A stretch of DNA of 64,000 nucleotides from Methanogenium organophilum (GTDB lineage: Archaea; Halobacteriota; Methanomicrobia; Methanomicrobiales; Methanomicrobiaceae). Position numbers and translations under genes: made by a program. Shown piece by piece: positions 36,327 to 39,859 of the stretch. Where the stretch lies: contig NZ_CP113361.1 in assembly GCF_026684035.1 (NCBI RefSeq), positions 2,046,001 to 2,110,000 of the forward strand, given 5' to 3'. Below the pieces are notes generated by a model. The model had not been told where the DNA came from. It did no database searches and saw only the letters and a list, made by a program, of their open reading frames with translations. Numbering within the stretch: position 1 is the first letter of the stretch; every line of letters begins with the position of its first letter.

Positions 36327-37358
36327 TTATACCCGTTTTTTCATCCAGGTAGAGAGTAGTCCGAAACAGCCGGTGAGCATCATGTCACCATACGGCGATG
36401 CCTGATACGCATCCGGGAGAATCTTTCTGCGGTTCGGACCGGTAACGGCGATGAGTGACGGGCTGCATGTACGGTTTACCGCAGCACCGTGCCCATGGTC
36501 GTTATACACCTCTTCATTTGTCAGAGTACCGTTATGCAGTTTTGTGAGATACTGCCTGCATGTTCCGTCATTCATGAGCACCCGCGAGTGATGTTCAAAG
36601 ATACCGCAGATCTCATCTCCTTCTATTGTTACTGCCAGGGTGTGCCCATTTCCGGCGTTTACAATGGTGACGCCACGGTCCTTTGCCTCATTCACTATCG
36701 GATCCTGAAGAGCCCCGAAGATCGCGGCAGCGCCAGTGTCCATCACGAGCGCATGCGGCCTGATATCACGAATTGCCTGCATCCGTGTCATAGATGTGTG
36801 CGGGGGATCCTGTATGAGTGAGCGGATATTCCAGTCTCCCCTTTCAAGCATTTCTTTCAGATGGAGGAATCTGAATTTACGGTTACTCATATTCGGGCTG
36901 TAACCATGATCCTGTACTGCAACAGCCAGATGATTTGGATAGGGAATACCAAACCGTGAAAACGTCTCCCGGAGCTCAGTTTCCATATAATCTCCGGTCC
37001 GGATGATTACCGCATCCTCAGGGGGAGTATCGGTGATAGCCACCCCGAGGCTCTGTACATATTCCAGGTTGTCACGGATGGTGAGCGCGGCTGTCGGGGA
37101 TGCGGAGAGTTTCAGCCCTTTTGGCAACCAGTGCTTGATTACCTGGGTATTTTTTCCCCCTCCCATCACCGGTCCTGCAAGATGGACTGGCTGCCCCTTC
37201 TCTGCTGCCTTCTCAATTGCCATCCCGGTGATTACATTTGGTGACGGCAGAACCATTTTCACCGAATTTTCAATCGGCTGGTCGGGTGTATAGAGTAAAA
37301 TATCCTGCGTCCCCCTCCCGATATCCAGGAGGAGAACAGGAACGTCTGGTCCTCTCAT
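36327..37358 (-). CDS. DUF1786-family protein (ASKHA-like fold)
   Basis: 343 residues. The N-terminal LLLDIGRGTQDILLY looks like the phosphate-1 loop of the actin/hexokinase/Hsp70 superfamily; VMDTGAAAIFGAL near residue 210 and VNAGNGHTLA near residue 235 look like further nucleotide-binding segments. Database entries of this family are sometimes named pyruvate formate-lyase activating enzyme, but no radical SAM cysteine motif is present and I do not accept that name. It follows the anaerobic ribonucleotide reductase gene after 28 bp on the same strand, so a link to that enzyme is plausible but unproven. It is the last gene before repeat cluster B. Confidence 0.8.
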   Translation of the reverse strand: MRGPDVPVLLLDIGRGTQDILLYTPDQPIENSVKMVLPSPNVITGMAIEKAAEKGQPVHLAGPVMGGGKNTQVIKHWLPKGLKLSASPTAALTIRDNLEYVQSLGVAITDTPPEDAVIIRTGDYMETELRETFSRFGIPYPNHLAVAVQDHGYSPNMSNRKFRFLHLKEMLERGDWNIRSLIQDPPHTSMTRMQAIRDIRPHALVMDTGAAAIFGALQDPIVNEAKDRGVTIVNAGNGHTLAVTIEGDEICGIFEHHSRVLMNDGTCRQYLTKLHNGTLTNEEVYNDHGHGAAVNRTCSPSLIAVTGPNRRKILPDAYQASPYGDMMLTGCFGLLSTWMKKRV

Positions 37359-37386: not shown

Positions 37387-39588
37387 TTAAACTTCTACCC
37401 GTCTGTCCGCAACAGAAAAGGAGGATTCCGGATTCTTTTCTGACCGGTACTCCTTGAACTGTCTGAGGGATACGGTGAGGTCACGGGTAAAGGCAAAGTA
37501 GCCAATCTGGGTATTTCTGCAGAGATTCATTGCCATATCCATCAGGCCACGAGGGTCGGGTCGTGCCTCCCCGAGCCAGATATGGAAGATATTGCCCCCA
37601 TCAACGATGGGGAAGAATACATGTTCAATCTCCATGCGTTTTGTCAATGGAACGTCTGCACCCGGTGTCACATGTGTCCCATTAGTATAATACACCGGCA
37701 GATCAAATTTCTGGCCCAGTTCAGGAATGGTTGCCTCCAGATCACCCTTGACGATTCTTTCGGCATGTGCCTTGAATCTTTGGTCTATCAGGTCTGCGAT
37801 GGCAAAGCGCTGTCCGGTTGTTTCGGCCGGTGTTCGTGCGAGAGCGATGGTCATGCCTGATTTCTGTGAGAGTTCATGTGAATAGAGTTCCATCTCTGTC
37901 AGGGCTCGGATTGCAAAATTGAATGCCTCACGGCTTTCGTGTAACTGGTATCCGGTATGATGCTGCACCATTTCATTGATACCGACAATACCAATGGTAT
38001 AGACCAGTCCCTCAAAATCAACGCCAACAGGACCCCGCTCTTCCATATCAGGATCATTGGGGTCTTTTGGACGCTGCATGGCAAAGGGCATTCTCCCGGT
38101 TGCCCGGATATGATTCATCCAGCGCCGTTTTATATGGAATATTTCAACAGAGACATCCATCAGTTTTTTGAGTTCTGCAAAGAGCCGTTCATCGCTGCCC
38201 TCTGCTTTGAAAGCTGCACGGGGACAGTTTACCGATAATACCTGCCATGAACCCATTGAGAAGTGCTTTCCGTCTTTGAAAAGCATCTTCTCGTCAAATT
38301 CATCATCATCTTCTGCGAGGGATGAGAACTGATACGCACAGCACTGGTAACAGGATATTCCTTCTCCGGCGCCGCGGTATGCCGGTATCTGGTTGTCATA
38401 ATAGGGTGTGCCGTATTTGGATGCGAGCTCAAAGGTCATCAGGTAGAGATCATGATATGTTGGAAGATCTGGGTTTGTGGCATTATATTCCTCGTCCTCT
38501 GTCATGAATTCGGGTTCAATACTGATCTCTGGTTTCGGGAAATTGAATGGTTTTCCCCAGTAATCCCCTTCCAGCATCACTTCCATCAGGGCTTTAAAGA
38601 GAAGTCGTACTTCCCGTTCAAATTCACCATATATACGTTCCGGTGCCTGTACGCCGTTCCAGACCTTCCCTTTATATACACAGGGTTTTTCTTTCCAGAG
38701 ACCGGGAACTCCCGGTGAGAGCTGGACTGATGAGAAGACGACCTGGCCGCCACGGGCGACCATCATCTGTGTCATCTCATACACAAACATCTGCATGAGT
38801 TGTTTGATGTCAAGATACGAAAACCCTTCAAAGTACGGGGCAAGAAATGTCAGGAAATTGTAGTATCCCTGTCCGCCGGCAAAGTTTGTCTGGGCGCTCC
38901 CGAGTGCCTTCACTGCGTGGAGGACGGCGACTTCGGCACGTTTTGCAGGGCCCGCGACAGATGCCTTTGTACCACTGCCGTCGGGCATAAGACCATAATA
39001 GAAGAAGTAGCGCAGGTCCCAGTCCTGGCAGAACGGTCGTGTGCCAAAGTATTCAAGGTCATGGATATGAAGGTCTCCTGCCAGATGATAGTCAGCGAGT
39101 TCCGGAGGGAGCTGAAGCAGGTACTGCTCTTTACTGATCTTGTCCGCCTTCTTTTTGTGGGATGTCTCCGCATTTTCCTGCAGGTTTGCGTTATCGTGTG
39201 CCTCAAATCCCCTGCCAACATCGATTAAATGTGCATCATAAACAGGGGTTCCGACGCGTGTGCAGACATTTCTGTAACTGGTTAAATCGCGTTCAAGAAG
39301 TGTGATATTGAGAATTTCCCGGATCAAAGGGCCGGAAAGAGATTTTAACTTCAGTTTTTTAATTTTGTTTTCCACTTCAAGCGCAATCTCGCGTGCAAGC
39401 TCAACGTCAGCACCAACACTACCATAAAATGTTTCAACCAGTTGTGTCTCTTTGAGAATCTGCGTTACGATTTTTTCCCTGTCCCATTCAACAATATGGC
39501 CCCTCGATGTCCTGACTTTTGGAAGTGTGGGTACATAGAAGCCATCAAGTGTCTGCTGAGTCTCTGCATGACGGGGATTTTTTGGCAT
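37387..39588 (-). CDS. nrdD: Anaerobic (class III-type) ribonucleoside-triphosphate reductase, C-terminal radical module missing
   Basis: 733 residues. Expected to reduce ribonucleotides to deoxyribonucleotides anaerobically. An ATP-cone domain covers about residues 20-110. GDLHIHDLEYF with the downstream cysteine (FCQDWDL) is near residue 171, and CCAYQF and NCPRAAF near 412 and 452 are the expected thiyl-radical region. NTQIGYFAFTRDLTV (about 692-706) is the conserved lead-in to the zinc-binding cysteines, but here it is followed by only 27 residues with no cysteine and no RVxGY glycyl-radical motif. No alternative frame encodes them. The start is the ATG at 39588 (GGAGAG upstream). The gene follows the glutaredoxin-like gene with one base between. 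Confidence 0.88.
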   Translation of the reverse strand: MPKNPRHAETQQTLDGFYVPTLPKVRTSRGHIVEWDREKIVTQILKETQLVETFYGSVGADVELAREIALEVENKIKKLKLKSLSGPLIREILNITLLERDLTSYRNVCTRVGTPVYDAHLIDVGRGFEAHDNANLQENAETSHKKKADKISKEQYLLQLPPELADYHLAGDLHIHDLEYFGTRPFCQDWDLRYFFYYGLMPDGSGTKASVAGPAKRAEVAVLHAVKALGSAQTNFAGGQGYYNFLTFLAPYFEGFSYLDIKQLMQMFVYEMTQMMVARGGQVVFSSVQLSPGVPGLWKEKPCVYKGKVWNGVQAPERIYGEFEREVRLLFKALMEVMLEGDYWGKPFNFPKPEISIEPEFMTEDEEYNATNPDLPTYHDLYLMTFELASKYGTPYYDNQIPAYRGAGEGISCYQCCAYQFSSLAEDDDEFDEKMLFKDGKHFSMGSWQVLSVNCPRAAFKAEGSDERLFAELKKLMDVSVEIFHIKRRWMNHIRATGRMPFAMQRPKDPNDPDMEERGPVGVDFEGLVYTIGIVGINEMVQHHTGYQLHESREAFNFAIRALTEMELYSHELSQKSGMTIALARTPAETTGQRFAIADLIDQRFKAHAERIVKGDLEATIPELGQKFDLPVYYTNGTHVTPGADVPLTKRMEIEHVFFPIVDGGNIFHIWLGEARPDPRGLMDMAMNLCRNTQIGYFAFTRDLTVSLRQFKEYRSEKNPESSFSVADRRVEV

Positions 39589-39589
39589 A

Positions 39590-39859
39590 TTACTCTCTCC
39601 GAAGCAATGGATTAACGACTTCCTCACGAACACCTTCTACACCAAAGAGATCCTTTGATATCAGGAAAGTTGTTCCAACCTGTAAAACCGGCGCCTCACG
39701 TACAAATACACCATTTATTCTGAGTTCTGTCAGTGCCTCTGCGTCCATCATATTGCGGATGGCATATTCGATACCTGCCGCATCCAGATATTCTTTTAAA
39801 AGTTCGCAGTTCGGGCAGTTTTCAAGTGTATATACATTGATCTTGGCTGCATCTGTCAC
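39590..39859 (-). CDS. Glutaredoxin/NrdH-like redoxin
   Basis: 89 residues from a GTG start preceded by GGGGGAT. A thioredoxin-fold protein with the active site CPNC near residue 15 (VYTLENCPNCELL), followed by the cis-proline segment EAPVLQVG. It ends directly before nrdD. NrdH-type redoxins reduce some archaeal class III reductases in place of formate; in Methanosarcina barkeri such a redoxin is supplied by ferredoxin-disulphide reductase. The role here is inferred from family and position. Confidence 0.9.
   Translation of the reverse strand: MTDAAKINVYTLENCPNCELLKEYLDAAGIEYAIRNMMDAEALTELRINGVFVREAPVLQVGTTFLISKDLFGVEGVREEVVNPLLRRE

Follow-up and report, generated by a model that had tools for sequence, protein, structure and literature searches.

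A probable natural split of the class III ribonucleotide reductase in the Methanomicrobiales, with the radical glycine on a separate small protein

Within the literature searched, every described cellular class III ribonucleotide reductase (RNR) carries its glycyl radical on the same chain as the catalytic body. A QCCR/A finger loop is the mark of the NrdD3 type, as given in PMC9669993, and the same paper describes a class II enzyme, NrdJa/NrdJb, that is divided between two chains, one with the barrel and one with a C-terminal zinc domain. Class III genes in pieces are known from single phages, where adjoining nrdD fragments often lie around introns, inteins or homing genes (PMC3653736). Small spare parts that replace a damaged radical domain have been shown for pyruvate formate-lyase only, and were speculated on for other enzymes (PMC8683613, 2021). 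No paper in the literature searched names an order-wide split NrdD or a split class III radical subunit.

The nrdD gene described here lies in a 64,000-nucleotide stretch of the Methanogenium organophilum genome (the window). It very probably encodes the catalytic half of a class III RNR that is split in two (Table 1). Residues 132-706 cover positions 1-510 of the 562 of the Pfam NRDD profile (PF13597), and TIGR02487 is matched from 2 to 529 of 581; both matches to the ten-stranded barrel domain are above cut-off. PF02867 is not matched by this protein, the PF02867 loci of the same genome being located elsewhere. An earlier sequence-only reading of the window had claimed that the enzyme ends before the zinc and glycyl-radical module, and the stop of the profile at position 510 bears this out. 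Its description of the C-terminus was likewise accurate: exactly 27 residues follow NTQIGYFAFTRDLTV, with neither a cysteine nor RVxGY among them, and a serine occupies the place of the TVC cysteine of fused relatives. Unlike in canonical single-chain class III RNRs, barrel and glycyl radical domain are thus not combined on one polypeptide. The proposed ATP cone is recognisable, but it scores slightly below the Pfam cut-off (23.2 versus 25.8 bits). The GDLHIHD, CCAY and NCPRAA motifs were located as had been read, and their residues are unchanged across 16 aligned bodies; QCCAY corresponds to the NrdD3 finger loop.

The NrdH-like gene that had been noted as a neighbour is indeed present upstream, its stop codon ending 1 base before the nrdD ATG. 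A gene of the nrdH type adjoins nrdD in 29 of 30 relatives' loci, as in NrdD3 systems, and its product is likely to be the electron donor. On the other side, a DUF1786 gene (36327-37358) starts 29 bases beyond the end of nrdD, a family whose Pfam name is putative pyruvate formate-lyase activating enzyme; it follows nrdD in 14 of 30 relatives' loci, for which the flanks were limited.

Table 1. Position of the reductase genes, and of the domains and motifs of the catalytic body; entries with a contig label are genome coordinates, all others refer to the window
Feature	Position	Strand	Remarks
nrdD body	37387..39588	minus	733 aa, ATG at 39588; NRDD profile 1-510 of 562
ATP cone domain, residues 24-104	39277..39519	minus	Pfam PF03477, E=1e-4
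GDLHIHD motif, residues 171-177	39058..39078	minus	
Finger-loop QCCAY, residues 415-419	38332..38346	minus	NrdD3-type double cysteine, candidate thiyl cysteine
NCPRAA motif, residues 454-459	38212..38229	minus	
NTQIGYFAFTRDLTV lead-in, residues 692-706	37471..37515	minus	zinc and radical domain comes next in fused enzymes
27-residue tail after the lead-in	37390..37470	minus	
nrdH-like glutaredoxin gene (CPNC)	39590..39859	minus	PF00462, E=3.6e-6
Radical module gene, 120 aa	G000:C1:1594841-1595203	minus	~488 kb from the body, outside the window
NrdG2 activase (radical SAM)	C1:230945-231472		TIGR02495, 153 bits vs cut-off 131.15
Class II-type reductase loci	G000:C1:1064111-1065532, 1076478-1077899		open frames of 742 and 573 aa, ~12 kb apart

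The NRDD profile matches the genome of the window in two places only, namely the body and, with profile positions 503-562, a stretch at C1:1594853-1595017. Among the explanations offered by the sequence-only reading, that of a separate gene for the radical module is the one that held: a stand-alone CxxC...CxxC...RVxGY protein, of the kind it had proposed to look for, is encoded here and accompanies the body across the order. This module combines a zinc knuckle CxxC-x4-CxxC with RVTGY, in a region that includes CPLCGQAVCPECGSHDVSQVSRVTGYLADVAGWNQGKQQELKDR, and N-terminal to it there is a second cysteine-rich ribbon (CHTC...CPCCG...CPLDHCHC). In a comparison with solved structures it matches the end of the 8P23 NrdD chain, RITGY included (E=7e-7). 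Zinc site and RVxGY domain of a class III RNR are hence present in the body-module pair, the module supplying both. AlphaFold gave models too poor for use with both module and body (mean pLDDT 64 and 51). In 21 genomes the modules are all 120 aa long and align without gaps, with Arg92, Thr94, Gly95 and Tyr96 invariant. The gene has pyrF on one side and a zf-like gene weakly similar to CbiZ on the other, and it lies behind deoxyhypusine synthase. This synteny is kept in nearly every examined member of the Methanomicrobiales, and in most of the checked loci the stop codon overlaps the next start (ATGA). By its sequence the module is a stand-alone radical domain, and as such it would act in trans. 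An activase, NrdG, had also been suggested as a search target, and an NrdG2 was found above cut-off. Since no glycyl radical domain of the pyruvate formate-lyase type (PF01228) was detected in the genome, NrdD is the only partner detected for the module; for the same reason we rejected its identity as a GrcA of the pyruvate formate-lyase type.

This division of the enzyme extends across the order. Both halves were found in 55 of 60 relatives' genomes and neither in two; the remaining three, two with the module only and one with the body only, are all 71-82% complete. In a wider sample of order genomes at least 90% complete, at least two NRDD matches were obtained for about 67, and none for eight that all belong to one genus. 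A search with a module profile found the module in 53 order genomes and did not find it in five of the genus without NRDD matches; in the two genomes of this genus that were tested, NrdG2 was not found above cut-off either. As the patterns of body, module and activase match across the tested genomes, their presence and absence go together. NrdD from other parts of the phylum is fused and covers the full profile (1-562). A tree of the catalytic bodies places ten split ones in a single clade (support 100) among fused enzymes, and the body of the window is 68-70% identical to the nearest fused ones, which are of the Methanosarcinales type. All bodies of the order with a readable end terminate at one common point. 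A sequencing error, which had been considered as an objection to the truncation, or a hidden frame, was rejected on account of this identical end.

Two further observations concern nrdD genes in the order. In several members the body ORF is 1,170-1,727 aa long with broken profile matches (G029, G030, G032, G035, G037, G044, G045, G049, G050, G053, G059 and others), and these long insertions are probably one or two inteins. One genome encodes, besides the split enzyme, an additional complete NrdD of a distant type (L078, G011:C1:590703-592373), 569 aa long and with its own RVSGY.

Whether the split enzyme works has to be judged against the possibility, raised by the sequence-only reading, of a truncated paralogue. 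In one form of this rival the body would be non-working or regulatory, and a class II NrdJ would do the work. Class II enzymes are indeed present in most members of the order, and the two class II-type loci in Methanogenium give it reductases besides class III; in this genome NrdD may be dispensable. Yet dN/dS ranges from 0.03 to 0.04 for pairs of bodies and from 0.03 to 0.11 for pairs of modules, values that indicate purifying selection on both halves. With a ratio near 0.04 and invariant catalytic motifs, the body looks like the working protein that had been favoured from the start, and its truncation is the same order-wide. Moreover, four genomes of the order combine a split NrdD with the lack of a detectable PF02867 enzyme. 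Both halves, together with an NrdG2 that scores over its cut-off, were found in Methanomicrobium mobile BP (G025) and the related genomes G026 and G027, as well as in a Methanocalculus that is 99% complete (G042). A profile search of these draft genomes for class I/II enzymes (PF02867) gave no hit, with the three Methanomicrobium genomes in agreement. For M. mobile and this Methanocalculus, no reductase other than the split NrdD was found. The full second reductase that had been named as a counter-argument thus exists in Methanogenium as two class II-type loci, but is missing from some members of the order, and we consider it very unlikely that the body is a relic.

It is similarly improbable that the body runs on another radical source, with the small glycyl module serving a different enzyme. 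Such a division would fit the ~488 kb between the two unlinked genes and the overlap of the module with the zf-like gene of weak CbiZ similarity rather than with nrdD. It is difficult to reconcile with a module that is the very end of the NRDD profile, with a genome in which no other glycyl radical enzyme was detected, and with the co-presence or co-absence of body and module, a pattern shared by NrdG2 in the genomes tested. The other source invoked by the sequence-only reading is not needed. The probable inteins in the long nrdD frames of several relatives might suggest that a split intein joins the halves after translation. This we regard as extremely unlikely: the body has 27 residues past the break without any cysteine, and the module opens with a conserved zinc ribbon in a frame of 120 aa, in which no intein motif was seen. 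As intein pieces were not seen at the break, we rejected this candidate. We thus favour, with high confidence, a naturally split class III reductase of the NrdD3 type whose radical subunit would be a separate 120-residue protein. The sequences themselves show the two halves and their residues, the conservation and loss that the halves share, and purifying selection acting on both.

From the parts found and from known class III enzymes, a mechanism can be outlined for this two-subunit enzyme. NrdG would generate the glycyl radical on Gly95 of RVTGY in the small subunit, which would then dock to the body, presumably by its zinc ribbons. In the docked state its loop might enter the barrel and hand the radical to one of the finger-loop (QCCA) cysteines, yielding a thiyl, while NrdH would re-reduce the active site as the putative electron supply. 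Because the radical chain is separate, cleavage by oxygen would cost 120 residues only, and a cleaved small subunit could possibly be swapped for a new one.

Relatives of the module also occur beyond the order. Stand-alone versions of 117-120 aa were found in the Methanosarcinaceae, in six genomes of one genus and a single genome of another, all of which also encode an NrdD with its own end; dN/dS of these modules is 0.10-0.24. One of them (L179:5019-5363, G102) has a C-terminal end that looks degenerate past the radical loop. In IMG/VR, 16 viral contigs (about 14 distinct) contain a stand-alone module, several of them together with terminase, portal, baseplate, primase or Sak4 genes. An NrdD body was not found in the searched contigs, which may be fragments. 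With a Methanosarcinaceae module as query, the viral scan returned one contig. The matches listed from phage and plasmid collections were limited to the NrdD ends of annotated complete enzymes and to unannotated records, and none of these listed matches spanned 80% of the module.

In a tree based on 47 columns only, the stand-alone modules form one clade against the fused ends (100/97), and the knuckle spacing of four residues occurs in all 17 stand-alone modules checked but in no fused enzyme checked. Clade and common spacing together indicate that the small subunit is one family and that the main enzyme of the Methanomicrobiales lost its own end, a loss which may have come after the spare part had been acquired. 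In Methanosarcinaceae and viruses, the related small subunits probably serve as spare radical parts or as boosters, and by analogy to T4 Y06I and pyruvate formate-lyase, a viral module may supply or repair the host reductase. That class III glycyl radical subunits in general form a mobile, exchangeable family, obligatory in the Methanomicrobiales, spare in some Methanosarcinaceae, and virus-borne as boosters plugging into or repairing the host reductase, is a wider proposal for and against which we see the case as evenly balanced.

Some viral sequences deviate from this pattern. Three modules (L196:5956-6285, L200:5989-6309 and L201:5989-6309), two of them identical in the module stretch, have an insertion of about 33 bases at RVTGY, which brings a stop codon in L200 and L201. 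It may be a small intron, another recoding device or damage; the RNA folds around the L196 and L200 insertions were no better than those of shuffles. Small viral proteins of 51-126 aa that end in glycyl loops of the type RRITGYL...KRAELKDR (L230, L240, L241, L243, L244, L246 and L250) are devoid of the zinc cysteines. The L241 contig encodes a 728-aa NrdD without the loop, followed by a 98-aa ORF with it.

A reductase with an always separate radical subunit would allow radical installation, docking and oxygen repair to be studied as separate steps. The split also offers an explanation for viruses having nothing but the small part, and this viral occurrence suggests that a catalytic radical is workable as an exchangeable component. 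At the same time it is a warning, as annotation would label the enzyme of a whole methanogen order as truncated.

Among the closest known systems is the Methanosarcina-type NrdD3, with which the enzyme shares the QCCA finger loop, the adjacent nrdH, NrdG2 and a radical module of the same profile. In NrdD3 the zinc/glycyl-radical domain is fused, whereas here this domain forms a protein of its own that has an additional N-terminal zinc ribbon, and its CxxC-x4-CxxC knuckle differs from that of fused enzymes, where the last CxxC comes 9-14 positions after the preceding cysteine. With GrcA/YfiD of E. coli and Y06I of phage T4, the module has in common that it is a small stand-alone radical-glycine domain with an additional N-terminal part and viral occurrences. 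The likeness to GrcA drawn by the sequence-only reading stands for the way in which the module would work but not for ancestry, the module being homologous to the end of NrdD rather than to pyruvate formate-lyase. GrcA/YfiD serves as a spare part only; the Methanomicrobiales likely possess a two-subunit class III reductase with an obligatory radical subunit, since no such end is present on the body itself. NrdJa/NrdJb is similarly divided, but, as described in PMC9669993, it is a class II enzyme with an adenosylcobalamin radical, whose separated part lacks a radical glycine. Finally, in contrast to the adjoining nrdD pieces of single phages, the split in the Methanomicrobiales is fixed and order-wide, with an unlinked subunit.
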